From: Gammaproteobacteria bacterium
GTDB taxonomy: Bacteria; Pseudomonadota; Gammaproteobacteria; SZUA-229
Assembly (NCBI GenBank): GCA_030595325.1
Contig: JAUVDN010000010.1
Location: forward strand, 1-37,701
Direction: 5' to 3'
DNA length: 37,701 nt
Of this stretch, positions 4,818-34,639 are shown in pieces; the stretch's first letter is position 1; the number at the start of each line of letters is the position of its first letter. Under the pieces are notes generated by a model. That model had not been told where the DNA came from. It searched no databases and saw nothing but the letters and a program-made list of their open reading frames with translations. Position numbers and translations under genes: made by a program.

Positions 4818-4887
4818 TATTATTCTCTTTTTTTCGGCTCTGCAGGTGCGCATTTATTTGCACTTACAATTCTCGCTGTTGCGAGTT

Positions 4888-15147: not shown

Positions 15148-15341
15148 ACTACTGTCCTCCAGATTAAGACCGTCGACATCATGACCTGTCATTAACAAAC
15201 GGGCTATCAGGGATTCCCTGATACTCATATAGGGATATGCTCGTGTTAACACCAAAGGAATATTTGTGTAGAGTGTCTTCTCCTCAAACAATTTAGCACT
15301 TTCTCTTCACACTTGAAGAATTGTACTAGTAATATAAGCCT

Positions 15342-16595
15342 GTGAAAAAAATACATACATATTTTCTACATACATTTATCATAATCACCGCAACATTAAT
15401 GATAGCGGCTATCGCCATCGCCAGCTGTTATTTTGGACTGATTGAACTGATTGACTCTGGCGTGATCAAGGGTATTGATCTCAATAATATCCAGTTACCG
15501 TTTGTACGAGCCATCGGAATAACGCTGGTAACTACATTGCTTATTGCCTTCCTTGCCAGTGTGATATATTTTCGTATAACTCGGCCATGGGCACAACAAG
15601 CTGAAACTTTTCATATACTTGCAAAAACGGCACATGAGGCCATTTTTCTAATCGATGCCCATGGCATTGTCCAGTTTGTAAACCCGGCCGCTGAAATCCT
15701 GTTCGGTTATGAGAGAAAAGAACTGCTGGGCGTGAACATCAAACATCTGATGCCCTCACCACACAGAAAATTACACGATAGCTATATCAAAGACTACCTG
15801 CAGACCGATATCAAAAAAATTATCGGTAAAGGACAACAGCTATTAGGTCAACGCAAAGACGGTAGCCAGTTTCCAATGTATCTTTCTGTCGGAGAAATCC
15901 AGTTAGAGCATACCCATCTGTTCGCCGGCCTGATCCTTGACCTCAGTGAACAACAGAAGCTTCAGCGCGAAGTTCTTGCCATTCCTGCGCGTGAGCAACA
16001 GCGTATCGGCGAAGAATTGCACGATGGTCTTGGTCAACAGCTCACCGGGTTAAGCATGCTGGCACAGAGCCTACTGAACAAAGCAAACAAATCCGAACAT
16101 GATCTGGCCGAGCAACTGGCCAGCGGACTGCATGAAGCACTGACCCAGGTACGTGAACTGGCCCGCGGTTTAATGCCTATACAGATCGATGCCGATGGCT
16201 TTACGCTATCGCTACAGGAGATTACAAAAAACATCGAACAGCAGAGTAATATTCCAATAAAACTTCAGATCGACAATATTGTACAATTGTTTGACGATGC
16301 GACTGCGGCCCATCTCTACCGGATCGTTCAGGAATCACTGAACAATGCGATCAAGCATGCCAAAGCCAGCCGTATTAATGTTTCTCTCAAAATTGAACAG
16401 GAACATGGCGTTTTAGAAATAATTGATAATGGTATTGGCATACCATTCGACCTTGAAGAATCTGCTGGTCTGGGATTAAATATCATGAGACACCGCTGTG
16501 GTCTGTTCGATGGAGAGATCACCATCAATCCCGCAGGCGAACGCGGTACTAAGGTATGCTGCCGATTCCCAATCAACCCGGAGGAAGCCTATTAA
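15342..16595 (+). CDS. Membrane sensor kinase, FixL-like PAS plus NarX/DegS-type kinase
   Basis: A 417-residue histidine kinase starting at GTG. Two membrane helices (about 8-34 and 56-77) flank a short periplasmic loop. A PAS domain (about 90-203) is strikingly FixL-like: PSPHRKLHDSYI aligns with the segment carrying the haem-ligand His200 of Bradyrhizobium FixL (here H145), and IIGKGQQ and KDGSQFPMYLSVGE also match. The residue 20 after that His, Arg220 in FixL, is Gln165. The kinase core is HisKA_3/HATPase: REQQRIGEELHDGLGQQLTG with phospho-accepting H227, then ESLNNAIKHA and GLGLNIMRHR. FixL itself has a different dimerisation domain. The stop overlaps the regulator start (TAATG). Haem-based gas sensing is inferred, not shown. 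Confidence 0.9.
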   Translation: MKKIHTYFLHTFIIITATLMIAAIAIASCYFGLIELIDSGVIKGIDLNNIQLPFVRAIGITLVTTLLIAFLASVIYFRITRPWAQQAETFHILAKTAHEAIFLIDAHGIVQFVNPAAEILFGYERKELLGVNIKHLMPSPHRKLHDSYIKDYLQTDIKKIIGKGQQLLGQRKDGSQFPMYLSVGEIQLEHTHLFAGLILDLSEQQKLQREVLAIPAREQQRIGEELHDGLGQQLTGLSMLAQSLLNKANKSEHDLAEQLASGLHEALTQVRELARGLMPIQIDADGFTLSLQEITKNIEQQSNIPIKLQIDNIVQLFDDATAAHLYRIVQESLNNAIKHAKASRINVSLKIEQEHGVLEIIDNGIGIPFDLEESAGLGLNIMRHRCGLFDGEITINPAGERGTKVCCRFPINPEEAY

Positions 16596-17230
16596 TGGCC
16601 AAAATTCTAATCGTAGACGATCACCCTCTGGTACGTGCCGGTTTTTCCCAGCTCATCGGTGACACAACTGACCTCACCGTCTGTGGTGAAGCGGGTGATA
16701 TGGCTACCGCATTAAAACTGTTAGATTCGGTTAAACCTGATTTAGCTATCATAGACCTTTCACTGGCCGGTGGCAGCGGCATGGACCTGATTGAACATAT
16801 CAAAGCACGGGATAGCAAAGTTCTGATGCTGGTGGCTTCAATGCACGATGAAGCTCTCTATGCGGAACGCGTACTTACCGCCGGTGCGCGAGGTTACATC
16901 AATAAGCAGGAAACACAGGGAAAAATTATTCCAGCTATTCGTCAGGTGCTTGATGGCAAGGTCTATATGAGTGAGTACATGACCGAAAAAATATTAAACG
17001 ACATGGTGAGTGGTTCAGATGAGAAACGTGGTATCAAGTCATTATCAAACCGTGAACTGCAAGTGTTCGAAATGATTGGTCAGGGCATCGCCCCGGGAAA
17101 AATGGCCATGCAACTAAACTTAAGTATTAAAACGATTGAGACGTATCAGGCACACATCAAAAAGAAACTAGGGCTGACCTCTGCGCATAAACTCACACAT
17201 CGCGCCATACGCTGGGTACTGGAACAATAA
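16595..17230 (+). CDS. NarL/FixJ-family response regulator
   Basis: A 211-residue response regulator. The start is set at the ATG at 16595, with CGGAGG upstream and a one-base overlap with the kinase stop; the ORF-track start at 16556 lies inside the kinase gene. The receiver has ILIVDDHPLVRAG, the phospho-acceptor Asp in LAIIDLSLAGGSG, and Lys in ARGYINKQE. The C-terminal LuxR helix-turn-helix runs from LSNRELQVFEMIGQG to HIKKKLGLTSAHKL. It is the evident partner of the adjacent kinase. Its targets are unknown; the neighbouring fnr and storage genes are possible. Confidence 0.94.
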   Translation: MAKILIVDDHPLVRAGFSQLIGDTTDLTVCGEAGDMATALKLLDSVKPDLAIIDLSLAGGSGMDLIEHIKARDSKVLMLVASMHDEALYAERVLTAGARGYINKQETQGKIIPAIRQVLDGKVYMSEYMTEKILNDMVSGSDEKRGIKSLSNRELQVFEMIGQGIAPGKMAMQLNLSIKTIETYQAHIKKKLGLTSAHKLTHRAIRWVLEQ

Positions 17231-17261
17231 ATCGGTATTTTAAATGAGTCGTTAGACGTAA

Positions 17262-17555
17262 TTACTTCTTTTCATTTTCCATTGCCTTGTCACAGAGTTC
17301 TTTGTACAGATGCCCCATATGCAGACAAAATTCTTCTAGCTCCGGGTAATTGACCGTCAGGTGTTTCATGGTACAGGCATCTTTGATCTCCTTACACAAA
17401 AACTCGAAATCCACATCATTGATGGTTTCACCACGATCAACTTTATCTTTCAGTCTTAACAACCTTGGCAGGCGATGCTGTTCAAATTCTTGCATCAATG
17501 AATGAAAAACACCTAGATGCATTTCTTTGATATCAACTACAATAGTTTTCTGCAT
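17262..17555 (-). CDS. Hypothetical protein, small Cys-containing
   Basis: I do not recognise this 97-residue protein. The ATG at 17555 is preferred over the GTG at 17564 because GGGTG sits six nt upstream. It is predicted mostly helical and charged, without a signal peptide or membrane segment. Four Cys (in FLCKEIKDACTMKH, EFCLHMGH and KELCDK) and several His suggest possible metal or redox chemistry, but no known motif fits. It converges with the response regulator, and a strong terminator separates it from the secreted protein gene upstream, so it is probably transcribed alone. Confidence 0.6.
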   Translation of the reverse strand: MQKTIVVDIKEMHLGVFHSLMQEFEQHRLPRLLRLKDKVDRGETINDVDFEFLCKEIKDACTMKHLTVNYPELEEFCLHMGHLYKELCDKAMENEKK

Positions 17556-17583
17556 GCCAATCACCCATTTCTGTTTATAGTAG

Positions 17584-17616
17584 AAAAAAAGCAGGTCATA
17601 ATTAACCTGCTTTTTT
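17584..17616 (-). terminator. Rho-independent terminator of the sulfur-globule-like gene
   Basis: AAAAAAGCAGGT and ACCTGCTTTTTT arms flank an eight-base loop, 23 bp past the stop of the minus-strand gene at 17639. The minus-strand transcript ends in a U-run. The stem is symmetrical, so it may also stop plus-strand transcripts. Confidence 0.9.
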
Positions 17617-17638
17617 ATAGATAGAGCGTTATTGCCGC

Positions 17639-18079
17639 TTACTTAGCTGCAGGAGCAGCTGGTGCAGGAGCAGCTGGTGCAGGACCAGGACCGTATTGTG
17701 GACCAGGGCCATAACCAGAACGAGGACCGTAGTACGGACGGTTATAATAACCATTATTACCGTTATTACCGTTATAACCATTACTGTTGCTCCAGTTATT
17801 ACGATTGTCCCAATTATTGCTACCATAATAATCGTTACGAGCGTTGCCACGGCCACTACCTTTGCCTTTACCACTCATGCCAAAGTTAAAGCTGCCATCC
17901 ATATCGCCAGATCCGTCGCCAGATCCATCACCTGAACCATTATTACGCCAGTCGTTATTCCAGTTATTGTTATTGTTGTTGTTCCAGTTGCTGTTGTTGT
18001 CCATAGGACCCCAATCGGCACTAGCTGATGCAGATACTAATAATATTGTAGCTGCTGTTGCAGTAAGTAATAATTTCAT
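17639..18079 (-). CDS. Secreted Asn/Gly/Tyr-rich protein, probable sulfur globule protein
   Basis: A 146-residue protein from the ATG at 18079, with GGAGG five nt upstream; the ORF-track start at 18154 is poorer. A clear signal peptide (MKLLLTATAATILLVSASASA) is followed by WGPMDN, Asn/Trp-rich runs, GDGSGD repeats, a FNFGMSGKGKGSGRGNAR block, Tyr/Gly/Asn stretches and a Pro/Ala tail ending AAPAAK. From memory this layout (signal peptide, WGP, GDG...FNFSMSG-like block, Gly/Tyr repeats, PAAPA tail) matches envelope proteins of periplasmic sulfur globules in purple and colourless sulfur bacteria. Low-complexity proteins can mimic each other, so the call is probable. It has its own terminator and an FNR-type promoter. 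Confidence 0.72.
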   Translation of the reverse strand: MKLLLTATAATILLVSASASADWGPMDNNSNWNNNNNNNWNNDWRNNGSGDGSGDGSGDMDGSFNFGMSGKGKGSGRGNARNDYYGSNNWDNRNNWSNSNGYNGNNGNNGYYNRPYYGPRSGYGPGPQYGPGPAPAAPAPAAPAAK

Positions 18080-18179
18080 ATTTCCCTCCACAGGAGTTTT
18101 ATTTAATAATCTATCGCAAGAACCCTCTCTAATAAAAACACTCCTGCGAATCACTAAGAAAAATTAATTTCTGCGTTCG

Positions 18180-18220
18180 ATAATACAAACATTCTTACGC
18201 AATACTTTGATATATATCAA
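18180..18220 (-). promoter_or_regulatory. Class II FNR promoter for the sulfur-globule-like gene
   Basis: TTGATATATATCAA (18207-18220) is a perfect FNR palindrome. On the minus strand a -10 of TATTAT (complement of 18180-18185) follows after 21 bases. That puts the box centre about 41 bases upstream of the predicted start near 18172, the classic activating position. The leader would be about 93 nt. In the plus direction TATATG (18243-18248), 22 bases from the box, could likewise serve the CBS gene at 18400. Confidence 0.75.
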
Positions 18221-18399
18221 AAAGAAAAGCTGTGAATCTGGCTATATGGACTAAATTTCTTTGCTATGTCTTATTTATTACAGATATTTTTAGTTTTAAA
18301 CACACTATTCTCGAAACAACGGAAGCAATAACTGTAAAAATTACATCAAGCACATATATGAAATAATAATAAATTTTTGAACACATAACAGGTACAGCT

Positions 18400-18870
18400 A
18401 TGAACGCCTCAGAAGCAATGGATCCAAATCCAACGACACTAAATCCCACTGACACTATCGAGTGCGCTTCCGAATACATCATGAAAAATCGCTATCGCAA
18501 CCTGCCCGTGGTGGACGAAAATTTTTGTTATGTAGGTATGTTCGGCGTCAACTGTTTACTGAAACAAGTTATTCCCAAAGCAGTATTTCTCAAACAGGGG
18601 CTGGAAAATGTCAGCTTTATTCATGAGTCTTTTGAAGACCTGTTTCACCGGTTTTCAGCAGTAAAAGATCACCCCATATCCATCTGTATGAGCAAAGAAA
18701 TCGAACCGGTCACACCTGATACACCACTGACAGAAACCATGATGCGGCTTTATAAAACCCGCGCCAGTATCCCGGTCGTCGATAAAGACACTTGTAAGTT
18801 ACTGGGGATGATTTCGTACTGGGAGATAGGCGAGAAAATACTCGCTGCAGGAGAATCAAAAGATGCATAG
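18400..18870 (+). CDS. CBS-domain protein
   Basis: A 156-residue soluble protein with two CBS motifs: one at about residues 10-60 (NPTDTIECASEYIMKNRYRN, LPVVDENFCYVGMF) and one at about 100-150 (VTPDTPLTETMMRLY, ASIPVVDKDTCKLLGMI). CBS pairs usually bind adenine nucleotides and gate the activity of a partner. Its last eight bases overlap the permease gene, so the likely partner is that transporter, either as a regulatory subunit or as a sensor. AGG sits seven nt before the ATG. The FNR box about 180 bp upstream may also serve this operon. Confidence 0.85.
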   Translation: MNASEAMDPNPTTLNPTDTIECASEYIMKNRYRNLPVVDENFCYVGMFGVNCLLKQVIPKAVFLKQGLENVSFIHESFEDLFHRFSAVKDHPISICMSKEIEPVTPDTPLTETMMRLYKTRASIPVVDKDTCKLLGMISYWEIGEKILAAGESKDA

Positions 18871-20200
18871 CACTCACCAGGTGGATGTAATCTTTGGCCT
18901 GTCCCCCGTCTTGTTTGCGGGCAGTTTATTTGTACTAACCTATCTACTGATCATTACAGAACGATTGAACCGCGCCATTATCGCCATGATGGCTGCAGCG
19001 TTGATGATCATCGGTGGTGTACTCACACAGGAAGCAGCCGTTCAGGGTGTCGATTTTAATACCATCGGACTACTAACAGGTATGATGATCATCGTTGGTA
19101 TCACCCGAGATTCCGGCGTATTCCAATACCTGGCAATCCGTTCAGCCAAAGTGGTTAAAGCTGACCCCTGGGGCATCCTGGTCATGCTGATGATAGTCAC
19201 CGCAGTGTTATCCGCCCTGCTGGATAATGTCACCACCGTATTATTGATAGCCCCCATCACTTTACTGATTACCGACACACTGAAAATCAACGCTTACCCT
19301 TACCTGTTTGCTGAAATATTTGCTGCTAATATCGGTGGCACAGCGACCTTAATTGGCGATCCGCCTAACATCATGATTGGTTCTGCAACAGGCCTTGGTT
19401 ACAATGACTTCCTGTTTAACCTGGCACCTATCGCTATTATAATATTGGCAATTACTATCATTCCAATATACTTTATCTGGGGTCGGCATCTAAAAGCCGA
19501 ACCCGAATTAATCGAAAAAGTAATGCAATACCGTGAAATTGATGCCATCAAAGACTGGGTACTTCTCAAAAAATCACTGTTTGTATTGACGCTAGTCATG
19601 TTCGGTTTTATCGTTGGCCATGATTATGGCTACCAGCCGGCAACGGTAGCCATGTTTGGCGCAGCTTTATTACTCACCTTAAACTGCTTGCCACATAGCC
19701 AGGAAAAACAGACAGAGCTTGTTGCCAAATCTCTGTGTGATGTCGAATGGATTACCATCTTCTTTTTTATCGGCTTGTTTATCCTGGTCTACGGTGTTGA
19801 AACCACTGGCATACTGGAGTCACTGGCGCATCAGGTAATAACACTGACAGATGGTGACAAAACGGTAACCGCGATTTCAATTTTGTTTGTGTCCGCAGTT
19901 GCATCAGCTATCGTTGATAACATCCCCTTCGTCGCAACCATGATTCCGTTAATTAAAAATATGGCGGCAAGTTTTGGCGGTGCAGAAGAATTATTACCAC
20001 TATGGTGGTCGCTAGCTTTAGGTGCATGTCTCGGTGGAAATGGCAGCCTTGTTGGTGCCAGTGCTAATCTGATCGTTGCAGGATTTGCCGAAAGATCTGG
20101 CCAGCCAATCCGGTTTTTACCTTTCATGCTGATGGCCTTTCCGATGATGCTGGTATCTGTCTGTATCAGTGCAGTATATGTTTACTTTCGTTATTTTTAG
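18863..20200 (+). CDS. ArsB/NhaD-type (IT superfamily) permease
   Basis: A 445-residue polytopic membrane protein with about eleven or twelve hydrophobic segments. The internal repeat signatures ALLDNVTTVLLIAPI and ASAIVDNIPFVATMIPL, and the pair ANIGGTATLIGDPPNIMIG and CLGGNGSLVGASANLI, are typical of ArsB/NhaD/SLC13-like anion or Na+/H+ transporters. The substrate (arsenite, Na+/H+ exchange, an anion such as sulfate) cannot be read from sequence, and no ars regulator or arsC is nearby. GGAG lies upstream of the ATG inside the end of the CBS gene. Confidence 0.88.
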   Translation: MHSTHQVDVIFGLSPVLFAGSLFVLTYLLIITERLNRAIIAMMAAALMIIGGVLTQEAAVQGVDFNTIGLLTGMMIIVGITRDSGVFQYLAIRSAKVVKADPWGILVMLMIVTAVLSALLDNVTTVLLIAPITLLITDTLKINAYPYLFAEIFAANIGGTATLIGDPPNIMIGSATGLGYNDFLFNLAPIAIIILAITIIPIYFIWGRHLKAEPELIEKVMQYREIDAIKDWVLLKKSLFVLTLVMFGFIVGHDYGYQPATVAMFGAALLLTLNCLPHSQEKQTELVAKSLCDVEWITIFFFIGLFILVYGVETTGILESLAHQVITLTDGDKTVTAISILFVSAVASAIVDNIPFVATMIPLIKNMAASFGGAEELLPLWWSLALGACLGGNGSLVGASANLIVAGFAERSGQPIRFLPFMLMAFPMMLVSVCISAVYVYFRYF

Positions 20201-20771: not shown

Positions 20772-22169
20772 TCAGCGAATGTCCATATGTTTAAGCTTTC
20801 GATAAATAGTTCGCTCACTGATTCCCAGTGCGGCAGCCACCAGTTTACGATTACCGTTAAATCGATTAAGCAGATCTCTAATGTGATCTTCCTCTATACT
20901 CTTTAAGGTAGTCGATCCATTAGTACCACCGGACAAACCTGACGTTAATGATGCTTGCGATGATGCAATGTTCATCGGGTCGATTTTGTCTGCTTCAATT
21001 GCGTTACAATGCGGCAAATTATTTAATACATTTTTAATTAAGGCGGCGTCGATTTCCCGATTACGGCTATGTGTTGCAGCAATAAAAAGAATATTACGTA
21101 ACTCACGGACATTGCCAGGATATGAATAACTCTTCAGACAATCGTAAACATCTGCCATCAGACGATAACTGCAGCGCATTGAACGGTTAATACCTTCGAG
21201 CAAACTGCGTGCCAGTATAGGTATATCATTGATGCGTTCTCGCAAACTTGGTAGACGGACATTCAGACAGGCAATCCTGTAATACAAATCTTCACGGAAG
21301 CCACCGGCGATTACCGACTCCCATAAGTGCCGGTTAGTAGCACAGATGATACGAACATTGGCCTTGCGCATACGCTTGCCGCCGACACGTCTATACTGAC
21401 CGGTCTCCAGCACACGTAGTAGTTTGGCCTGTTGTGAAAGTGGCATATCGCCGATTTCATCGAGAAAGATAGTGCCGCCGTCTGCTAGCTCGAACAGCCC
21501 CTGCTTGTCACCCGTGCTACCGGTATATGCTCCACTGACGTGACCGAACATCTCTGATTCAAACAGGCTCTCCGTTAATACTGTACTGTCAACGATTTGA
21601 AAGGGGTTCATGTTACGCTGAGAATGCGAATGAATATATTCAGCGGCTAGCTCTTTTCCGGTACCTGTCTCGCCCTGTAGCAGTACCGGTGCATCGGAAC
21701 TGGCTGCGATATTCAACTGATCGATACAGGCGGTAAATTCAGCTGAATCACCAACCATTCGGTTATTACCGGGTTTGCAATTTATATCAGGTGTAATTTC
21801 TTCGATACATTCGCCTAAAAATAATTCATTATTATCACTTCTTAATGGAAAAGCAGATACTTTTACCTGATGCATGCGGTGTTCTGCATCACAATGCAAA
21901 TGTGTACAGATTTTTGCCTCACCGGTGTTAAAAACATGCTCATGCGGACACTCCTCACCGTCGACACTGCATGGATAATCTTTACCATGGCTAACCTGAT
22001 GACATGTCATACCGATGGCACTTTCATTTGAAGTACCATATTGTTTCTCATAGGCCTTATTCACTGCCATGATGCGATAGTTCTTATCGATGACAACAAA
22101 AGGTTGCTCGTGACTGTTGACCATTGAGTCCAGATTGACTGACACTGCAGTTTCAACTTTCTTATCCAT
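20772..22169 (-). CDS. Sigma-54-dependent activator with Cys/His-rich PAS domain
   Basis: A 465-residue bacterial enhancer-binding protein without a receiver domain. An N-terminal PAS domain (about 12-130) carries many potential metal or haem ligands: C56, H57, H61, C67, C74, H76, H78, C88, H90, H92, C93, H97, H100. The AAA+ domain has Walker A GETGTGKE (166-173) and Walker [11 protein letters not shown]. Its sigma-54-contacting loop reads GAYTGS instead of the consensus GAFTGA. A Fis-type helix-turn-helix is at the C-terminus ([19 protein letters not shown]). Divergently transcribed from the secreted peptide gene, which has a sigma-54-type promoter, it is the natural activator for the three such promoters here. 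The signal is probably a metal or redox cue, by inference. Confidence 0.93.
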
Positions 22170-22339: not shown

Positions 22340-22357
22340 TTGGTATGTTTGTTGCTT
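22340..22357 (+). promoter_or_regulatory. Sigma-54-type promoter for the secreted peptide gene
   Basis: TTGGTATGTTTGTTGCTT has the invariant GG-N10-GC of -24/-12 promoters and a good TTGC. Transcription would start near 22367, giving a leader of about 70 nt before the ATG at 22438. The core is identical at 14 of 15 bases to the one upstream of the multicopper oxidase. Confidence 0.72.
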
Positions 22358-22820: not shown

Positions 22821-25800
22821 TCAACCCGGTTTTCTCTTATAGAAATAAAAAAGAACCGGTAATAAAAACATTGAAACTAATGGTGCGGTAAACATTCCTC
22901 CTACCATTGGAATAGCAATCGGCCGCATCACTTCAAGACCGGTGCCTTCACCAAGCAATATCGGCAATAAACCACCAATAATAATAGCCACCGTCATTGT
23001 TTTAGGTCTTACTCTTCTTAATGCACCTTGCAATACTGCCTGCTTGAGTTCTTCATTTGTTTGCGGCGCATTCTTTTTTATAGCCGCATTCAAATAAATC
23101 AACATCACAATGCTAAATTCTATTGCCACACCTGCTAAAGCAATAAAACCAATTGCTACGGCGACTGAAAGATTTAAACCATAAAAATAAAGCAGCCAGA
23201 TGCCTCCTGACAATGCGAAAGGCACAGATAACATAATCAGCAATGGCTCCATGATATTTTTAAAACTCAAATATAGAAGAACAAAAATAATGGTTAAGGT
23301 TAAGGGGATAATGTAGATCAGCTTTTCTTTAACCCGCTCAAAATATTCGAATTCACCCGCCCAGGATAAGCTATAACCCGTTGGCATTAAGACCTCACTA
23401 TTAATAACTGCCTTTAGTTCATTAACATACGCACCAAGATCACGGTCTGCGATATCGATATACACATAGACACTCAAACGACCATTTTCACTCTTGATCA
23501 TCGCAGGTCCATCCGAATATTTAATTTCTGCAAATTCACTCAAAGGTAATAGATCGCCATGTTTTGTCACGATAGGAAGGTCACGCAATTTAGCGAGTGA
23601 ATTTCTTATATCATAGGGGTAACGTATATTGATCGGGTATCGTTCACGGCCTTCGACCGTCTCTGTAATATTCATTCCACCAACAGCGGTCGAAATAATT
23701 TGCTGCAGATCACCGACATTAAAAAGTTGCTGGCCCGCATTGTAACGGTCAATGGTAATATCGATATATCGTCCATTAGAAATACGTTCTGCTATGACCG
23801 ATGCAGTACCATCAATCGATTTAGCCAGACTCTCAATCTGTTGAGAGATCCTTTCTACATCTTTCAACTCCGGACCAGAGACTCTGATACCGACAGGCGT
23901 TTTCACGCCTGTGGCTAACATATCAATACGGGCTTCGATAGGCATTAACCACGCATTGACCAGACCCGGTACATTCACTCTGGCATCAAGTTCAGCTTTT
24001 ATTTTTTTGATGGTCATGCCTTCACGCCACTCTTCTTCAGGCTTAAGCTGAATCGTTGTTTCCAGCATATTAAGTGGTGCAGGATCAGTAGCCGTTTCGG
24101 CTCGCCCTATCTTTCCGAAAACCTGCTTTACTTCAGGAACCGTTAATATTAACCGGTCCGTCTGCTGTAATAACTCCCGGCCTTTTCCTATAGAAATACC
24201 TGGCAAGGTGGTTGGCATATAGAGCAGATCACCTTCATTTAATTCCGGCATAAATTCTGAACCAATCTCCGACCATGGCCACGCTGACGTTATAAATAGA
24301 ATAAAAGCAATTGCTATAACCTTAAATGGTGAATTTAATGCTCGCGTTATATAGGGTTTATAGAGGCCGGAAAACCATCGATTGACCGGGTTATCATATT
24401 CACTCTTTATATTCCCGCGGATGAAATAAACAGATAGTACCGGCACCAGAGTAATCGAAAGTCCTGCAGCTGCAGCCATTACATAGGTTTTGGTGAAAGC
24501 CAGCGGGCTAAACATTCGCCCTTCCTGAGCTTCTAATGCGAACACCGGTAAAAAGCTTAAGGTAATAATAACTAGTGAGTAAAATAATGGTGGACCAACT
24601 TCTACACAGGCATCGGTGATAATTTTTATCCTGTTTTCTACATTATGATTTTTATTATTAAGCTCAAGATGTTTATGAATGTTCTCGATCATAACAATAC
24701 TGGCATCTAGCATTGCGCCTATGGCTATGGCTATGCCACCAAGTGACATGATATTGGCATTGATACCCTGATACTTCATCACGATAAAGGCTGATAAAAT
24801 ACCGACGGGGAGACTTATCGCTATAACCAGAGAAGAGCGAAGGTGCATTAAAAATATAACACAGACCAGGATAACAATAATAATCTCTTCGATTAATTTA
24901 TTGCTTAACGATTCGATAGAGCGCTGGATGAGGTCAGCTCTATTATAGGTTTCAACCAACTCTACCCCCTCAGGCAGAGCCAGCTTTAACTCTTCAATTC
25001 GTTGTTCGACATGCCGGATGGTATCAAGTGCATTCTCCTGCCATCGCATGATGACTATGCCACCAACAACCTCCCCCTTGCCATCAAGTTCTGCTACCCC
25101 CCTTCTCGGAGCCGGTCCTTCTCTAATCTCAGCAATATCACGTAAGAAAACAGCGTCACCAACAGAGTTAACACCGAGCGGCCCAACACTTCCTATATCT
25201 TCTATACTGGATAAATAACCATGCACACGTATCATGTACTCCGCTTCTGAGAGCTCAATGACCGACGCACCTGATTCCTGATTGCCATTCTTAAGCGCAC
25301 TAATTACCGATGAAAGTGTAACCAGCTCACGAAGCAGTACATTTGGATCAATAACTATTTGATACTGTTTAACCATACCGCCGAGTGATGCGATTTCTGC
25401 AACACCAGGAACAGACTCCAGTTCATATTTTAAAAACCAGTCTTGTATCGAGCGTAATTCACCTGGACCATGCTTTCCGGTTTTATCAATCAAGGCATAT
25501 TCATAAATCCAGCCGACACCACTTGCATCTGGACCTAACGATGATTTGGCACCATCTGGCAAAGTCTTTTCTACTTCGATCAGATACTCAGAAACACGCG
25601 ATCTCGCCCAGTATGGATCCACTCCTTCATCAAATAATACGTATACATAAGAATCACCAAAAAAAGAGTAACCCCGCACTGTGGTTGCGCCTGGCACGGT
25701 TAACATGGTTGAGGTTATGGGGTAGGTTATCTGGTCTTCAATAATCTGTGGTGCCTGCCCGGGGTAACTGGTTTTGATAATAACCTGGGTATCGGATAAA

Positions 25801-25922
25801 TCTGGTATGGCATCAAGCGGGATACTGCTGAGGGAACGCATGCCCCAGACAGCAAGGATCAAGCTCAATAACAGGATTAGCAGTCTGTTTTCTATCGACC
25901 ACCGAATTATCAGCTTGATCAA
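22821..25922 (-). CDS. cusA: Copper/silver efflux RND transporter, CusA-type
   Basis: A 1033-residue heavy-metal-efflux RND pump of full length. The N-terminal IPLDAIPDLSDTQVIIKTSYPGQAP and the TM4 motif GGIAIAIGAMLDASIVMIEN place it in the Cu+/Ag+ subgroup (HME4). The three methionines matching the CusA copper relay are visible in GDLLYMPTTLPG, PLNMLETTIQLKP and RIDMLATGVKTPVGI. The start is a TTG preceded by AGGAG and overlapping the cusB stop by four bases, so translation is coupled. It exports copper or silver from the periplasm or inner membrane through an outer-membrane channel not encoded here. Confidence 0.95.
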   Translation of the reverse strand: MIKLIIRWSIENRLLILLLSLILAVWGMRSLSSIPLDAIPDLSDTQVIIKTSYPGQAPQIIEDQITYPITSTMLTVPGATTVRGYSFFGDSYVYVLFDEGVDPYWARSRVSEYLIEVEKTLPDGAKSSLGPDASGVGWIYEYALIDKTGKHGPGELRSIQDWFLKYELESVPGVAEIASLGGMVKQYQIVIDPNVLLRELVTLSSVISALKNGNQESGASVIELSEAEYMIRVHGYLSSIEDIGSVGPLGVNSVGDAVFLRDIAEIREGPAPRRGVAELDGKGEVVGGIVIMRWQENALDTIRHVEQRIEELKLALPEGVELVETYNRADLIQRSIESLSNKLIEEIIIVILVCVIFLMHLRSSLVIAISLPVGILSAFIVMKYQGINANIMSLGGIAIAIGAMLDASIVMIENIHKHLELNNKNHNVENRIKIITDACVEVGPPLFYSLVIITLSFLPVFALEAQEGRMFSPLAFTKTYVMAAAAGLSITLVPVLSVYFIRGNIKSEYDNPVNRWFSGLYKPYITRALNSPFKVIAIAFILFITSAWPWSEIGSEFMPELNEGDLLYMPTTLPGISIGKGRELLQQTDRLILTVPEVKQVFGKIGRAETATDPAPLNMLETTIQLKPEEEWREGMTIKKIKAELDARVNVPGLVNAWLMPIEARIDMLATGVKTPVGIRVSGPELKDVERISQQIESLAKSIDGTASVIAERISNGRYIDITIDRYNAGQQLFNVGDLQQIISTAVGGMNITETVEGRERYPINIRYPYDIRNSLAKLRDLPIVTKHGDLLPLSEFAEIKYSDGPAMIKSENGRLSVYVYIDIADRDLGAYVNELKAVINSEVLMPTGYSLSWAGEFEYFERVKEKLIYIIPLTLTIIFVLLYLSFKNIMEPLLIMLSVPFALSGGIWLLYFYGLNLSVAVAIGFIALAGVAIEFSIVMLIYLNAAIKKNAPQTNEELKQAVLQGALRRVRPKTMTVAIIIGGLLPILLGEGTGLEVMRPIAIPMVGGMFTAPLVSMFLLPVLFYFYKRKPG

Positions 25923-27253
25923 TTCTCAACTCCTGGTGCCGTATCACCAACAGCGGGTGAGTTGATAACGGGCTGACTAAACCGTGAAACTTCAGCTCTG
26001 AGCTCACTTTCTGAATCTAATAAAAACTGCCCTGATACCACGACCTTCATGCCTTCTTCTAAACCTTCAATAATCTCAACAAACTCATCATTATTCAGCC
26101 CGGTGACAACATCGACCGGCTGGAAGCGACCACCACTTTTTGCTACCACTACGACACTTTTGGAGCCCGTTCGAATAACAGCTGAAGACGGTGCCAGTAA
26201 AACATTATCTTTTGATTCTGTATAAACGATCATCTCGGTCTGCATTCCCAACCGTAGATCCAGCTTATCGTTAGCTTTAAAATCCGCAATTAATTTAACG
26301 GCTGTGGTACTGCTATATCCCAGGTCATCTACTCTCCTTACTTCACCTTGCCAGCTCAGACCGGGGAATCGGCGTATAGACATAGAAATTTTCTGGCCGG
26401 GTTTAAGCCATATCCATTGTGTCTCAAAAACTTTGGCATAAGCTGAAATAGAATATAACGGTTTAAAGCCACCGATTATTTCACCTGGTTTTACTTTTTG
26501 ATTGAGCTTAATATTTAATGTAGTTAATAAGCCGGTATCAGAATAACGCAGATGGTAGATATTTGATGGTTTACCGATTTTGATTAAAGTATTTAGTTCA
26601 ACAAATGTATAACCTAAGGACATTAGCTTCTTCTTTAAAACACGCATACTCCTTACATCATTTTCATCGACCGCTTTTATATATTGCTGCTGAAGCTGCA
26701 ATATTTCATCTGACGCAAGTGAAACAATGACTTCATTTTTGTAAAATTTATTTTCTTCAGGTGAATGATTAATAAATTGAACAATGCCTGAGACAGGTGA
26801 TGTTAAAGAAATATCTTTACGTTTTTTAACTTTATTAACATAACCATAAATCCTTATATTTCTATAAATATTATCTCTTTTAATTGTTGTCGTTTTTATA
26901 CCGAAGTTATTTATAATTGATGAATCAACACGTATTTCTGGGCGTGATTTTCTATCATCATTTTTAGTCAGTAAATTATCTAGCTGTTTACTAACTAAAG
27001 ACATACCACAAATCGGGCAATCGCCCTCATGTTCCTGATGAATATGCGGATGCATAGGACAGGTATAGTATTCGGACTTAACCAGTTGTATGGTCTGGTC
27101 GTTAATACTATTTCCTACTTCATCAGTAGAAGACGGGGATGAAGAATGCTGATTTGGAAAAAGTTGATTTGGAAAAAGCATGGGACCAGCAACCATACCG
27201 AAAATGAACGCAATAATTGCTGTAACTAAAATAAAAATTAAAGACTTATTCAT
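25919..27253 (-). CDS. cusB: RND periplasmic adaptor, CusB-type, with metal-binding N-domain
   Basis: A 444-residue membrane-fusion protein. An N-terminal membrane anchor (about 5-27) is followed at about residues 60-88 by the heavy-metal-binding domain YYTCPMHPHIHQEHEGDCPICGMSL, then lipoyl/hairpin and beta-barrel regions (SPVSGIVQFINH, GLNNDEFVEIIEGLEEGMKVVVSG). It bridges CusA to an outer-membrane factor. The CPMHP...CPICGM motif is common in copper-linked adaptors. No CusC or CusF homologue is seen nearby. A terminator lies between the upstream oxidase gene and cusB, so cusBA is likely expressed partly by read-through or from a promoter in the 55-bp gap. Confidence 0.93.
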   Translation of the reverse strand: MNKSLIFILVTAIIAFIFGMVAGPMLFPNQLFPNQHSSSPSSTDEVGNSINDQTIQLVKSEYYTCPMHPHIHQEHEGDCPICGMSLVSKQLDNLLTKNDDRKSRPEIRVDSSIINNFGIKTTTIKRDNIYRNIRIYGYVNKVKKRKDISLTSPVSGIVQFINHSPEENKFYKNEVIVSLASDEILQLQQQYIKAVDENDVRSMRVLKKKLMSLGYTFVELNTLIKIGKPSNIYHLRYSDTGLLTTLNIKLNQKVKPGEIIGGFKPLYSISAYAKVFETQWIWLKPGQKISMSIRRFPGLSWQGEVRRVDDLGYSSTTAVKLIADFKANDKLDLRLGMQTEMIVYTESKDNVLLAPSSAVIRTGSKSVVVVAKSGGRFQPVDVVTGLNNDEFVEIIEGLEEGMKVVVSGQFLLDSESELRAEVSRFSQPVINSPAVGDTAPGVEN

Positions 27254-27308
27254 GAGGGTAACTATAAAATAATTGAGGTTATATCTCTAGCCAATACAGT
27301 ACTAAAGC

Positions 27309-27338
27309 AAAAAAAAGCCGGCAAAAAAGCCGGCTTTT
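27309..27338 (-). terminator. Rho-independent terminator after the multicopper oxidase
   Basis: AAAAGCCGGC and GCCGGCTTTT form a ten-base stem with an A6 loop, and the minus-strand transcript continues into more U residues. It ends the oxidase message 22 bp past its stop and sits 56 bp before the cusB start. Confidence 0.9.
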
Positions 27339-27359
27339 AGTTTTAGCTGTGACTAAAGA

Positions 27360-29483
27360 TTATAAACTGCCACAGACAGACCCTGAGAAAGGAGACAGGA
27401 CACCATTTGTATCAACAATATCTGTAACACAGTAGGTCAGGTTTCTAACTTTAGCAGAGTTAGTAGTACTGACAGATGTTTGACCACTCGCATCAGTCGC
27501 TGTACTGACTATTCCAGACTCATTAATTGATCCAGTAAAATCACCAGTAACGATAGCATCTGCAACAGGATTACCTAGATCATCAACAACGACGATATCG
27601 GCGACACCAAACTTCGTACCTTTACGGGCATTAACAGTGCTTACGGTAATTGAACCCACATCGACACTGGTCGGATCACCACTACCACCGCCAGCTTGAG
27701 TCGTTGCACTGGCAATATTGGTATAAGCAGAATCACCGGCTGCATTAGAAGCATTAACCTGAAAGAAGTATTCAGTTGATGCAGAAAGGCCCGTAACAGA
27801 GTAGTTGGTGCTGTCCGCCCCAAGTACTGCGATAATGGAGAAATTTACACCGTCTAATGATTCTTCAACCTGGTATGTTTCCTCATCTGTCGCATTATCT
27901 GTCCAGCTTAAGCTAATCTGGCTGCTTGAAGCCGCACTTGCAGACAGACCAGTAGGGTCAGCAGGTACGGTTGGATTGACGCCATCAAGTTCATATTTTT
28001 CTAAGAACCCTTCACCCACTGGGAAAGTTGGTGCGCCAATAGTGCCAGTAGCAGGCTGAACAACCATGTAACCCATTGCTCCCTGATCTTCATGGTCAAG
28101 AAGGTGACAATGGAAGATGGTCTTACCGTCAAAAACAGTCGAAGTCTGTGGGTTCAGGTCAAACCTGACATCACAAGAGGCAGCGATGGTATCGTAATAC
28201 TCCCCCGCTTCATATTCACCACAGTCAGTTTGAGCCTGGAAATGAAAAACATGTAAATGGAAAGGGTGATTAGTCGCACCAGATACTGACCATTCCTGCA
28301 CACCATCTGCCTGTGTGATAAATGTGGGTTCAAGAATATCAAACTTACTGCCATTGATCGTGCGAGCACCCATACTCACAGTTTCAAAGTTAGTAACAGG
28401 TTCATTTCTTAGATCTCTAAGATAACTCGGTCTAAATGAAGCCCACTGAGATACACCATCTGTTGCATATGGATGCCCTGCGCCAACCGGAAGCGTATCA
28501 TCAGCATAGATATTTGCAACCACTGTAGTGCCAACAGTTAGTGTCGAGTCACCAGTACAACGTACAGCAATATCTGCTCGTGAACCACCGGTTAGAGACA
28601 TAGTATTGTTATCAGCAGCTAGATCTTTAGGTACCATGGTTCTCCAGACACCGTCTCGCGCCAGTAATGCCACTTCACAATTATCACCAACTGTGACATC
28701 TTTGGCTTTAACATCTGCAGCTGCAACTAACAGACGCCAGTGCTGCCAGGTATTAGCCGGCATACAAACATTGCCGTCAACTGTACCATTCACGTTCCAG
28801 CCAGGACTCAGCGTTCCTGAAACAAGCATATCGCCACCCGTTCCAGAGACACTTGGATCAAGGTATCCCAGTGTTAATAGTCTTTCGTCCATTGCAGCAA
28901 CATTTGCCGGGATGCCATCAAACTTATCGTCGATAAGCAACATACCAAAAGCACCACTCGATATCTGCAGGTAAGTAGAACCATGGTGATGCGCGTGAAT
29001 CCAGAAAGTACCGCCCATATGGTCCACAGTCATATCAAAAACATAATCACCGCCAGTACGACCTTCGAAGATACGCGTGGCATCATCTCCTGGTGTATCA
29101 CCCGTAGTATGTAAACCATGGGTATGTAAATTGGTCACATTAGGGTCTTTAAATCTATTATGCAAGTCACTGAGTGGCTCATAAGGCAGCCGATTTTCAA
29201 ATTTCAGTACATATTTTTTACCCGGTTCCATAACGATAGTCGGACCTGGTACGCTAGGTGTAGAGCCTGCCTGAGCATAAGCTCGTGTGGTAAGGGTTTC
29301 ACCATTATTTAGCGTTAAAGTAACTTCATCCATAATTAATGTGCCACTTAAATAACTGCCGTTATCTGTCCATTGGAACAGTGGCGCGTCAGTAACGACA
29401 TCGGTCGTCGGACAACTGCTTGCATTAGCGAGCAAGGGAACTGCTAAGATTATAAAGAGAGCTAGCGAACAATATTTTTTCAT
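27360..29483 (-). CDS. Secreted multicopper oxidase with fibronectin III and Ig-like C-terminal domains
   Basis: A 707-residue protein with a signal peptide (cleavage near ANA-SSCP). All copper-site motifs are present: HTHGLHTTGDT, WIHAHHHGST, HPFHLHVFHF and HCHLLDHEDQGAMGYM, the last with the type-1 His-Cys-His and axial Met. The cupredoxin core ends near residue 485. A fibronectin type III domain follows (about 500-595, LSASAASSSQISLSWTDNA), then an Ig-like domain (about 600-707) with two Cys, possibly disulfide-bonded. Those tails are typical of surface or exported proteins. Substrate is unknown: cuprous, ferrous or manganous ion or an organic compound are options. The sigma-54-type promoter upstream and the cusBA genes downstream point to copper biology. 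Confidence 0.92.
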   Translation of the reverse strand: MKKYCSLALFIILAVPLLANASSCPTTDVVTDAPLFQWTDNGSYLSGTLIMDEVTLTLNNGETLTTRAYAQAGSTPSVPGPTIVMEPGKKYVLKFENRLPYEPLSDLHNRFKDPNVTNLHTHGLHTTGDTPGDDATRIFEGRTGGDYVFDMTVDHMGGTFWIHAHHHGSTYLQISSGAFGMLLIDDKFDGIPANVAAMDERLLTLGYLDPSVSGTGGDMLVSGTLSPGWNVNGTVDGNVCMPANTWQHWRLLVAAADVKAKDVTVGDNCEVALLARDGVWRTMVPKDLAADNNTMSLTGGSRADIAVRCTGDSTLTVGTTVVANIYADDTLPVGAGHPYATDGVSQWASFRPSYLRDLRNEPVTNFETVSMGARTINGSKFDILEPTFITQADGVQEWSVSGATNHPFHLHVFHFQAQTDCGEYEAGEYYDTIAASCDVRFDLNPQTSTVFDGKTIFHCHLLDHEDQGAMGYMVVQPATGTIGAPTFPVGEGFLEKYELDGVNPTVPADPTGLSASAASSSQISLSWTDNATDEETYQVEESLDGVNFSIIAVLGADSTNYSVTGLSASTEYFFQVNASNAAGDSAYTNIASATTQAGGGSGDPTSVDVGSITVSTVNARKGTKFGVADIVVVDDLGNPVADAIVTGDFTGSINESGIVSTATDASGQTSVSTTNSAKVRNLTYCVTDIVDTNGVLSPFSGSVCGSL

Positions 29484-29541: not shown

Positions 29542-29560
29542 CCGCAAAAAACATACCATA
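29542..29560 (-). promoter_or_regulatory. Sigma-54-type promoter for the multicopper oxidase
   Basis: On the minus strand, TATGGTATGTTTTTTGCGG contains GG-N10-GC with TTGC at -12. The start would be near 29532, giving a leader of about 49 nt. The core TGGTATGTTTTTTGC differs at one base from that of the secreted peptide gene. Confidence 0.7.
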
Positions 29561-30264: not shown

Positions 30265-30783
30265 TTGAACATCAAAGTACCAACTAGTGGTTTTTTTTTA
30301 TTGCTTTCCTGTTTGCTGTTACCAGCTACCACACTCAGTGCTGGCCTGGATCCTTACCGCAATGCAGACAATTACAACTTCTCCCTGCCTGACCAGAAAG
30401 GACAGCTACATACACTGGTCGATTACCGTAACAAAGTTGTCCTGGTAAATTTTTGGGCAAGCTGGTGTACACCCTGCCTTCTGGAAATGCCAGGCATGCA
30501 ACGCTTATCCAACATCATGAACGATGAGAACTTTGAGATACTGACAATAAATACTTCCGATACACCGAGGCGTATTCAGGAAACATTAAAACGACTGCAA
30601 GTGAATTTGATAGTTTTACAGGATCAAGATAGCACTACATTCAAAGCCTGGAACGGTAATGTATTGCCAACAAGCTACCTTTTGGATTATAACGGTTTGG
30701 TGCGCTACCGGGTTGTCGGGCCTATGGAGTGGGATAACGCAGATGTAATAGTAAAGATTAAAAAGTTAATTAAAAGTCAATAA
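30265..30783 (+). CDS. TlpA-like periplasmic thioredoxin
   Basis: A 172-residue protein with a signal peptide (through LSA, about residue 26) and a thioredoxin fold. The active site is FWASWCTPCLLEMPGM, with C-x2-C at about residues 68-71, and the cis-Pro segment is NVLPTSYLLD. TlpA/ResA-type proteins reduce apocytochrome Cys pairs or metal-site Cys, which would fit maturation of the nine-haem cytochrome or oxidase nearby. The start is TTG: an in-frame stop lies just upstream and no earlier start exists, and there is no clear Shine-Dalgarno. It is divergent from the oxidase and convergent with the cytochrome. Confidence 0.9.
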   Translation: MNIKVPTSGFFLLLSCLLLPATTLSAGLDPYRNADNYNFSLPDQKGQLHTLVDYRNKVVLVNFWASWCTPCLLEMPGMQRLSNIMNDENFEILTINTSDTPRRIQETLKRLQVNLIVLQDQDSTTFKAWNGNVLPTSYLLDYNGLVRYRVVGPMEWDNADVIVKIKKLIKSQ

Positions 30784-31480: not shown

Positions 31481-34366
31481 TTACCGCTTCTGTCGGTGAC
31501 ACATACCGCAACCTACTGCTGTTCCTTTCGGAATAATCGCAGTTTGTTCACCGGCAGCACACTCTGGCAGACTACCCTTGTTGTCCTTACACCAGACAGT
31601 TCTATCATCTGCAGTACGCGACAGCACTGTACCTGTCAGGTCATTACCATGGCAGGCATCACAACCCGGACCATCATTGCGGTAGTTCTTGTGCGCAAAG
31701 TTCCAACGATCATCCGCTTTGGCCGGTGCAACTGGATCCAGATCCGTTACCGGATGCATACCGTGCGGACCGTTGTTACCCAAAGGTAATGACTCATCAT
31801 TCGGCTCATGACAGACAGTACACTCAGCGATGTAACCACTGTGTCCCTGTAGCTGTGAAGACGGAATATTATCATTAGCATTTGGATTAGCTGTTGGCCA
31901 TTCGGCATGCGTACTACCATGACAGGATTCACAGAACAATCCACCATGGCCATTACTTACCCGATACAGCTTTGGATTACCTATCGCTGCGGGATCACCT
32001 GGCATATCATCTGCGGTGATTACATTTTCAGCAAATGCTTTGTTGGTAGGAACAATCGGTGTTGCTTTGATATCACCTGTGCGATAAGCCGCAAGCAGAC
32101 GAATACCATCGTGATTACCCAGTGTATCGGTAGGACTCACCAATACGTCAGGATCGCCTGCAAGGTTATCAGTAGCATAACCGGTATGACATGAACCACA
32201 ACCAGGCTCGTTAGCCCATGGAACACGAGGCGTATCCGGATTGGTATAGAAATCCGGTCCTAAATCAAAAGCACCTGGGTTGATAAGTGAAACATTACTA
32301 CTGAAGTCATTACCTACTTGCTCCATCTGTCCGTGACAGTCCTGACAGACCAGACCACCGTTGGCCATCGCACCACGCATACACTCTGTTCTTTTACCGG
32401 GGTGACATAAATAACATGTCTCTTCCAGAATGTTCTGAGTGAGGACCGGATCACGTCGGTTGCCCTGTGCATCGATCGCTGGTGGCATATCCGGGAATAG
32501 ACCAGTAGTCGAATGATGACTGTGCATTACATTAGACATTGACTTATGTTTGATTTGGTCACGACCGTTGGCCAGTGACTCTATAAGGAATGGTCCACCA
32601 TCAGTATTAACTTCAAAGTTTTTTGCATCGTTCTCAGGTCCTAGCGGACCAAACTGAGCTAGATCCAACGCCGGTGTATAGTGACACGTCTGACAGACCA
32701 CCGGATTAACCGCTTTACCGGTATTTACATCAAAACCCTGATCCAGAGACGTACCATGTTTCTGGTCATGCAAACGTAACAGGTTGATATCACTTGCCCA
32801 TTCAACACTGACCTCAAGAGGCACGGTGTCATTGTGTAGTGGATCATCCATCGCTGAGGCAGGACTGTTTAGATTAGTAATTGCAGAACCTGTACCAATA
32901 TCAATTGAGTGACAGCTCTGACATTCCGCCTCACCAGAGATAGGCATGACGATATCAATCGATGCAACCATAGTGTTATTTACTTCAGCCTGCACTCTAA
33001 CTAGTGGGTACGGGTTCTCCTGACCGAAATCATCAAATGCTGCAATTGGAACACCGGCAGCTTCAAATAGATTTACGTCCGCGGTATAACCAAACGGAAA
33101 GTTGATAAAGAATGGCAACGTACCCACATGCTCATGGAATACCTGCAGATTATTAGCGGTGTACGGATCAGTTATACCCGACATGTTCTGCTGACTCGCA
33201 GCCAGAAATCCATCTTCCAGATAGAAACGTTCGACATCAGGCATCGGCAAGCCGACATCTTCATTACTGGAGAATAATGGCAGGATACCCGATGGGTAGA
33301 AGGGGTCGTAAGCTGTAGAAGAAACATCCCAGAAGTTGGTCTTGTAAACGGTGCCCGCGTTGGTAACCGAGGACAGTGCCTGACCACTGGCAACCTTCGC
33401 TGGTGCAGGATCATCAGGATTAGACGCAGCAGAGTAATACACCTTTACTTCGCCCTCACCCATTATCCGTGGTAGACCACCATTGCCACGCTGGATAACC
33501 TGCGAGTGCAGGACATTAAATGGAGGCAGGATACTGGAGATACGAGTATCAAGATCACCACAGTGCATACCCAGATCATTGATTGCAACAATGGCATAAT
33601 CAGGGTCTAACCAGAATGGTTGTTCAGTGACTGCAGCGGTAGGCACACGGGCTCCATTGACACTGGTTGAATTTATAGAGACCGCATTAATAGCAGTTAC
33701 ACCGATGGTAACCACGGCAGAGTTAGATGACAAAGCACCATCCTCTACGTGATAAGTAAAAGTATAAGAACCTGATAAACCGGCAGGTGGTTCAAAAGTA
33801 AAAGAACCATCAGCAGACAGGTTGAGTATGCCGTTGTTCACATCGACATCCAGCACGGCAGTCATTGGATCACCGTCAGGGTCATTGTCGTTACTGAGTA
33901 CACCGGGAGTTAGGATACTTAATAAAGTGTCCTGTTGTGTATTGTAATCATCATTTTGAGCTACTGGCGCTATATTTCCAGCCGCAGGGCTCACAGTAAC
34001 AGTGGTGTTGCAACTGGCGGTCGTATTATCTCTGTCAGTGACATCAAGTAATACATCATAAGTACCACCCGTGCCGTAGCTCACATCAACAGGGTTAGAT
34101 GATGAAGCGGCAGGGGTACCCGATCCATCTGAAAAATTCCACAGATATGTTTTGCCGCCTTTGGCGCCGCCATCTGCTGAACCGTTAAATGTTATAGCAG
34201 TACCAGCCGCTGTTGTGCCAGCATCCGGTGAAATTGTACACGATAGTGGTTGCGGTATCGGTTTGGCCGCCTGTACATCAACAAGAGCTATTACCAGTAA
34301 AATACTGACATTCGCCGTTATCACCGCTGTTTTTTTCAAGAGACACTTAGGTAATCCTGCAATCAT
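31481..34366 (-). CDS. Secreted nine-haem c-type cytochrome with PKD and cadherin-like domains
   Basis: A 961-residue protein starting at an ATG with AGGAGG eight nt upstream. The signal peptide ends near VQA (about residue 33). A PKD-like domain (about 38-130, ending in TVSP) and a cadherin/VCBS-like repeat (about 135-225, NDNDPDGDP) precede a mid-region of unknown fold with DLGMHCGDLD and ILPPFNVLHSQ. Nine CxxCH haem motifs run from about residue 480 to the end: CQSCH, CQTCH, CYLCH, CQDCH, CGSCH, CESCH, CTVCH, CDACH and CGMCH. Adhesion-type domains suggest the cell surface or exterior. A role in moving electrons to or from extracellular acceptors or metals is inferred. It has its own sigma-54-type promoter and terminator, so it is monocistronic. 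Confidence 0.93.
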   Translation of the reverse strand: MIAGLPKCLLKKTAVITANVSILLVIALVDVQAAKPIPQPLSCTISPDAGTTAAGTAITFNGSADGGAKGGKTYLWNFSDGSGTPAASSSNPVDVSYGTGGTYDVLLDVTDRDNTTASCNTTVTVSPAAGNIAPVAQNDDYNTQQDTLLSILTPGVLSNDNDPDGDPMTAVLDVDVNNGILNLSADGSFTFEPPAGLSGSYTFTYHVEDGALSSNSAVVTIGVTAINAVSINSTSVNGARVPTAAVTEQPFWLDPDYAIVAINDLGMHCGDLDTRISSILPPFNVLHSQVIQRGNGGLPRIMGEGEVKVYYSAASNPDDPAPAKVASGQALSSVTNAGTVYKTNFWDVSSTAYDPFYPSGILPLFSSNEDVGLPMPDVERFYLEDGFLAASQQNMSGITDPYTANNLQVFHEHVGTLPFFINFPFGYTADVNLFEAAGVPIAAFDDFGQENPYPLVRVQAEVNNTMVASIDIVMPISGEAECQSCHSIDIGTGSAITNLNSPASAMDDPLHNDTVPLEVSVEWASDINLLRLHDQKHGTSLDQGFDVNTGKAVNPVVCQTCHYTPALDLAQFGPLGPENDAKNFEVNTDGGPFLIESLANGRDQIKHKSMSNVMHSHHSTTGLFPDMPPAIDAQGNRRDPVLTQNILEETCYLCHPGKRTECMRGAMANGGLVCQDCHGQMEQVGNDFSSNVSLINPGAFDLGPDFYTNPDTPRVPWANEPGCGSCHTGYATDNLAGDPDVLVSPTDTLGNHDGIRLLAAYRTGDIKATPIVPTNKAFAENVITADDMPGDPAAIGNPKLYRVSNGHGGLFCESCHGSTHAEWPTANPNANDNIPSSQLQGHSGYIAECTVCHEPNDESLPLGNNGPHGMHPVTDLDPVAPAKADDRWNFAHKNYRNDGPGCDACHGNDLTGTVLSRTADDRTVWCKDNKGSLPECAAGEQTAIIPKGTAVGCGMCHRQKR

Positions 34367-34488
34367 GTCTTCACCCTCCTCAGATTTTTATTCATTTATA
34401 GCCTGGAGCACCCCCTGAATTTATATTCTGGTGATCATTGACCTTGATTATTATTTAGGCAGTGCGATGCACATACTTGAATTAATAA

Positions 34489-34507
34489 TTGCATGTTTCA
34501 TGCCAAG
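34489..34507 (-). promoter_or_regulatory. Sigma-54-type promoter for the nine-haem cytochrome
   Basis: On the minus strand, CTTGGCATGAAACATGCAA has a near-consensus -24 (TTGGCATG) and GG-N10-GC spacing; the -12 is ATGC rather than TTGC. The start would be near 34479, giving a leader of about 113 nt. Confidence 0.72.
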
Positions 34508-34580: not shown

Positions 34581-34639
34581 ATGACCGTTTGTGTCATTTG
34601 ACCATGACACAGTGACATTACGACTGCCACACATGTCAT
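34581..34639 (-). promoter_or_regulatory. Cluster of activator half-sites upstream of the cytochrome
   Basis: ATGACCGTTTGTGTCAT, TGTGTCAT-N6-ATGACACA (34590-34611), ATGACACAGTGACAT and a further ATGTCAT crowd into 60 bp. They lie about 100-155 bp upstream of the predicted sigma-54 start. The half-site TGTCAT/ATGACA is the same as beside the activator gene. Confidence 0.55.

Follow-up and report, generated by a model that had tools for sequence, protein, structure and literature searches.

Many bacteria use multihaem cytochromes to exchange electrons with other cells, with minerals and with electrodes. The octahaem sulfite reductases MccA/SirA are marked by a Cu(I) ion that two cysteines hold beside an open haem. 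Shewanella exports its surface cytochromes of the MtrC/OmcA type by type II secretion (PMC6929479). OcwA of Thermincola potens leaves two of its haems open and carries a three-helix bundle at its C-terminus (PMC6703420). ANME archaea and their partner bacteria possess multihaem cytochromes fused to adhesin or S-layer modules, including fibronectin domains (PMC9012536, PMC10553843). Here we compare these systems with a nine-haem cytochrome encoded in the window, the whole 37,701-nucleotide stretch of gammaproteobacterial DNA that we analysed.

The cytochrome gene lies on the minus strand, which the first-pass annotation had left unstated when it correctly placed the open reading frame; a plus-strand reading was rejected for its stops throughout. 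The gene is real, since homologues keep its reading frame and its core (the middle domain plus nine haems, residues about 228-960) at 42-85% identity. There are 41 such homologues, mostly from Gammaproteobacteria. The signal-peptide N-terminus is conserved in three relatives (L003, L108 and L109). Pfam confirmed the PKD and cadherin-like modules that had been read at the N-terminus, and a further profile, Cadherin_5 (PF17892), matched residues 131-223 (8e-14). The nine CxxCH motifs noted in the C-terminal half start at residues 482, 558, 651, 674, 723, 812, 849, 902 and 953, while shuffling the protein's own residues yields a mean of 0.017. Pfam also gave a Cytochrome_C7 match (1.2e-8). The protein is probably secreted and electron-carrying. 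An Rfam search of the whole window gave no match.

Features of the cytochrome locus, in positions of the window
Feature	Positions	Strand	Basis or remark
Nine-haem cytochrome gene, 961 aa	31481..34366	-	ORF call and homologues
Sec-type signal peptide, residues about 1-34 (...VDVQAA)	34265..34366	-	Sequence
PKD domain, residues about 45-125	33992..34234	-	Pfam PF18911 (PKD_4) 1.1e-8, match 51-123
Cadherin-like / Big_9 domain, residues 131-223	33698..33976	-	Pfam PF17963 3.4e-18
GMHC domain, residues about 228-478	32933..33685	-	No library match; conservation; predicted beta-sandwich
Nonahaem region, residues 482-957, nine CxxCH	31496..32923	-	Sequence
Invariant non-haem Cys269, GMHC motif (NDLGMHC)	33560..33562	-	38/38 full-length rows
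Invariant non-haem Cys662, C..CHPG..T.C.RGAM, between haem motifs 3 and 4	32381..32383	-	38/38 rows
Predicted sigma-54-type -24/-12 site TGGCATGAAACATGC, at -139	34491..34505	-	9/11 consensus positions
Candidate activator-binding region, repeated TGTCA/TGACA	34592..34638	-	Alignable in related promoters
Ribosome-binding site AGGAGG	34375..34380	-	Sequence
Intrinsic terminator GGGGTGGC-TTAT-GCCACCCC-TTTTTTT, 36 bases past stop codon	31426..31445	-	Sequence
PAS + sigma-54 activator (AAA+, Fis HTH), candidate regulator	20772..22169	-	Pfam
TlpA/ResA-like thioredoxin, convergent with cytochrome gene	30265..30783	+	Recurs beside family members
Secreted multicopper oxidase, FN3 domain, C-terminal Ig-like tail	27360..29483	-	Possible co-regulated partner

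Between the modules and the haems lies a domain with the signature DLGMHCGDLD...ILPPFNVLH. The first-pass annotation had called it unassigned and proposed profile searches and structure prediction. Single-sequence and profile searches of Pfam, NCBIfam and PDB sequences matched it to no known family. Structure prediction returned a beta-sandwich for the domain alone (pLDDT 75) and no significant fold match in the PDB; the AlphaFold model of the whole core (pLDDT 64) is poor in the haem part and also had none. We dismissed p53-like and OmcA fold matches as noise (best PDB matches E>=0.05). A periplasmic location or assignment to a known enzyme family had been named as evidence against an extracellular redox protein; neither was obtained, and no match to any such family or PDB entry was found.

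Within the core, the cysteines C269 and C662 are kept even in more distant family members such as L110, and besides the CxxCH histidines ten others are conserved at >=97%. These are enough to give each of the nine haems a second His ligand, the arrangement of electron carriers; the agreement is in number and implies no pairing of particular histidines with haems. The window protein combines the features by which we propose to define a GMHC nonahaem family: an NDLGMHC...SILPPFN domain, nine CxxCH motifs and C..CHPG..T.C.RGAM. We regard the GMHC core as an undescribed nonahaem family, which none of the searched libraries of domains, families and structures contains.

A single scan of the collection of species genomes returned 51 GMHC-family loci, nearly all in metagenome-assembled genomes of Gammaproteobacteria, with related genomes counted more than once. 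Carriers include Sedimenticola, Chromatiaceae, Thiohalocapsa, Thiolapillus and other lineages, along with a few genomes labelled Betaproteobacteria or Alphaproteobacteria. The family is found mainly in marine sulfur-cycle Gammaproteobacteria. It occurs in 15 of the 54 genomes of the window's order, and in an even phylum sample the domain profile was positive in two of 399 genomes, one of them the window's own. Across relatives the N-terminus carries PKD, two PKD, cadherin, unassigned Ig-like or almost no modules. Several N-termini are lipobox-like, and one member has C-terminal FG-GAP repeats. Since the core is conserved while the N-terminal parts vary, the core is the entity and the fusion an accessory. 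The fusion that had been called unusual therefore exists, but it is not unique and some relatives lack its modules. Plasmid records matched the cadherin/Ig module only and never the core.

The window's genome encodes a second GMHC nonahaem cytochrome (C9:9701-11803), 61% identical over the core. The N-terminus of this copy (L092, 7690-10254) is lipobox-like, and its front module differs from that of the window protein. Its neighbours encode a probable lipoprotein (10335-11852) and a small secreted protein. At L096, a lipoprotein-like protein of 1114 aa with 36 CxxCH and PKD-like domains (2514-5855) is encoded about 2.5 kb upstream of a family member, and a nine-haem protein of 244 aa is encoded near it.

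The family has a second branch, which we call type 2. L108 and L109, from the same genus as the window, encode proteins that can be aligned to the window protein over its signal peptide and its PKD and cadherin modules (44% and 35% identity, respectively), after which both continue as another protein, ELGMHCTGFEFAYCCVLPAYNS... The L108 protein has 1019 aa and nine CxxCH, while that of L109 is incomplete at a contig edge. Type 2 shares the GMHC motif and nine haems with type 1. The two profiles align over 648 columns (E 3e-24), and the GMHC domains alone are matched with a probability of 95% (E 6e-8). Both extra cysteines are kept, as C18 and C541 of the type-2 core, the latter between motifs three and four. 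L133 combines a type-2 core with a different front module and the same promoter. In L108 and L109 the promoter and leader of the window gene stand before a type-2 core, so these two elements stay constant while the haem core behind them changes. Most simply, this can be read as a single regulated, putatively secreted locus whose core has been exchanged. Other type-2 loci hold further cytochromes: L134 (1956-9037) has two GMHC cytochromes, with nine and seven haems, in tandem around a PPIase-like gene. About 8 kb from the L133 cytochrome, eight-haem, cytochrome b-type, one-haem and MtrA-like decahaem proteins are encoded (14653-19808).

The cytochrome gene is, by its predicted signals, a single transcription unit. 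Roughly 300 bases of upstream DNA align among the window, L003 (type 1) and L108, L109 and L133 (type 2), with a mean column identity of 68%. TGGCATG and TGC of the -24/-12 site are invariant in these five promoters, which also share an almost invariant AT-rich block and the TGTCA/TGACA repeats. As a strict palindrome, TGTCA-N7-TGACA is not above chance in the window, so that the aligned promoters alone carry the argument. Orthologues of the PAS-type activator, 68-70% identical, lie near type-2 cytochromes and TlpA genes in L108 and L133. With the promoter conserved in five genomes and an orthologous activator in three, the GG-N10-GC element and the activator together predict that the gene is sigma-54-dependent.

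Seven sigma-54-like sites occur in the window against 3.7 expected, a mild excess. One of them, TGGTATGTTTGTTGC at 22341-22355 (plus strand, 9/11), is at -76 of a gene for a 99-aa secreted small protein beside the activator. The nearly identical TGGTATGTTTTTTGC at 29544-29558 (minus strand, 9/11) is at -75 of the multicopper oxidase. Both genes possibly belong to the cytochrome's regulon. The oxidase belongs to one run of genes (22821-29483, minus strand) that also encodes a CusA/CzcA-type efflux pump and a CusB-like adaptor. Further away, 17639-18154 (minus strand) encodes a secreted Asn/Gly/Asp-rich low-complexity protein of 171 aa.

Several neighbours recur beyond the window. TlpA-like genes adjoin or lie near GMHC members in the window, L003, L004, L102, L108, L133, L134 and L136. 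A PPIC-type PPIase accompanies type-2 loci, Pfam-confirmed in L133 and L136 and with similar genes in L108 and L134; L136 additionally has a NapC/NirT-type quinol dehydrogenase beside its type-2 member. A response regulator and a histidine kinase flank the type-1 gene in L010, L030, L034, L045, L048, L049 and L110.

Other neighbourhoods may point to a route of export. In L029 and L040, which are of one lineage, the GMHC gene directly precedes gspC-D-E-F-G-H-I-J-K, and in L016 it is convergent with gspK...gspE. By chance, the 61 loci would have about 0.08 gsp operons as direct boundary neighbours; with the two lineages treated as two events, P is about 0.003, an estimate made after the data were seen. 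For a gsp operon anywhere in the flanks, P is about 0.06, likewise after the fact. In the window's genome the gsp set looks complete, as expected where all 22 near-complete genomes of its order have type II secretion; this universality makes mere co-occurrence with the cytochrome uninformative. The neighbourhoods are suggestive of a type II link, not decisive.

We read the window protein as an electron-transfer protein that is exported by type II secretion and bound to the surface or matrix, a reading to which we give about an even chance and in which location and redox partner are predicted. The PAS-type sigma-54 activator would switch on the single-gene transcript, as the conserved DNA suggests. 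Sec would carry the protein across the inner membrane, nine c-type haems would be added, and the associated TlpA thioredoxin may keep the extra cysteines usable. Judging from relatives' gene neighbourhoods, the folded cytochrome would then leave through the type II system, and its PKD/cadherin modules would anchor it to the cell surface or the matrix. There the haem chain could pass electrons from an external donor to the cell or from the cell to an external acceptor, and the GMHC beta-domain would pack against this chain for docking or to provide the active site. The first-pass annotation had likewise suggested a redox protein outside the cell or bound to its surface. The signal peptides or lipoboxes, the Ig, PKD, cadherin and FG-GAP modules and the two independent type II neighbourhoods agree with that suggestion without proving it.

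Instead of a surface electron carrier, the protein could be a multihaem enzyme, periplasmic or secreted, that acts on a small soluble sulfur, nitrogen or oxyanion compound and in which C269 and C662 form a metal (e.g. copper) or substrate site by haem 3/4, loosely as in MccA/SirA, matured by TlpA and, in type 2, also by the PPIase. This alternative is possible, if rather unlikely. The invariance of both cysteines in both branches fits it, as do the recurrent TlpA gene, the PPIase and NapC-type protein beside type-2 members, the patchy accessory distribution (15/54) and the flanking two-component systems in other lineages, reminiscent of inducible respiratory enzymes. Indeed, the type-2 neighbours suit a periplasmic reductase equally well, which counts against a secreted protein. 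However, the conserved histidines are enough to close all nine haems, no known enzyme family or PDB entry was matched, and secretion-type modules and type II neighbourhoods indicate an extracellular location. A broader proposal, which we regard as unlikely, is that the core represents a new multihaem oxidoreductase class. An invariant His-Cys of the beta-domain and the second invariant cysteine, between haems 3 and 4, would form a metal or substrate site. The haem core would act as a replaceable cartridge: with promoter and secretion leader fixed, regulation and export would stay the same while substrate specificity changes.

The FN3-tailed multicopper oxidase and the CusA/CusB genes sit between activator and cytochrome, and the 9/11 sites at -75 and -76 would fit a cytochrome that partners the oxidase under the same activator, the pair oxidising or detoxifying metals extracellularly beside CusBA-type efflux. 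Such a partnership is quite unlikely: the oxidase is beside the cytochrome in no other locus examined, CusA-like genes recur only in L042 and L049, and the excess of sigma-54-like sites in the window is only mild. We favour electron transfer over both the small-substrate enzyme and the oxidase partner. It is very unlikely that the protein is a divergent terminal reductase of the OmcA/MtrC type that works through a porin-cytochrome conduit. PF22113 (MtrC/MtrF domains II/IV) is touched by 25 of 42 cores at E<=0.001 and its cut-off is passed by the distant member L110 (52 bits), but the window protein scores 17.3 bits against a gathering score of 30. We did not accept this profile as a sign of membership, since its matches shift position from one member to the next and track the CxxCH motifs. 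TIGR03507 is matched by none of the 42 cores, the window core has no NCBIfam match, and when profiles were compared with OmcA/MtrC from the window's order, CxxCH patches alone aligned. As the first-pass annotation had stated, no MtrA/MtrB porin complex lies next door, and this holds across the 83%-complete assembly. There, MtrA/DmsE, MtrB, MtrC/OmcA and NapC were not detectable and neither PF11854 (MtrB-type) nor TIGR03508 (MtrA-type) matched. Although 17% of the genome is missing, the lack of a detectable conduit also counts against surface electron transfer as we favour it; a released or matrix-bound cytochrome might instead relay between extracellular partners.

All evidence on GMHC cytochromes here is sequence-based. 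Observed directly are the domain architecture, a conserved core that keeps two invariant cysteines beyond the haem motifs, a conserved promoter and the leader/core exchange. New are the predicted single transcription unit with its sigma-54-type site, TGTCA/TGACA repeats and terminator, and the promoter and leader shared with type-2 cores. A conserved family absent from libraries in sulfur-cycle Gammaproteobacteria, maybe without the standard conduit, raises the question of how a secreted cytochrome is used. Haem cores that change while promoter and leader stay the same are a rare natural experiment in the modular evolution of surface redox proteins.

Compared with described systems, the GMHC family is, on sequence criteria, neither OmcA/MtrC nor, by motif, MccA/SirA, and has no detectable similarity to OcwA. 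With MccA/SirA (PMC6976685) it shares a multihaem core, extra cysteines between haem sites and maturation-type genes nearby, by analogy only: there is no sequence match, no sir/mcc-type membrane subunits accompany the window protein, and where SirA has CX12NKGCH all nine of its haem motifs are canonical CxxCH. OcwA, a proposed surface reductase (PMC6703420), likewise has nine haems and a beta-sheet domain; no PDB sequence matched the window protein, and the lack of a fold match is a weak negative given the poorly modelled haem part. The ANME-type fusions differ in domains, sizes and lineages, and no PKD was found in the texts of PMC9012536 and PMC10553843. Against the decahaem OmcA/MtrC, the window protein has nine haems, one unrelated beta-domain, PKD/cadherin modules and no MtrA/MtrB partner. 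OmcA/MtrC proteins are also marked by two beta-barrel domains and haems laid out as a staggered cross; the core and domain-only models gave no significant match to this fold, again a weak negative for the haem part. What the window protein has in common with them is the general plan: secreted c-type proteins with many haems, whose beta-domains precede the haem clusters.
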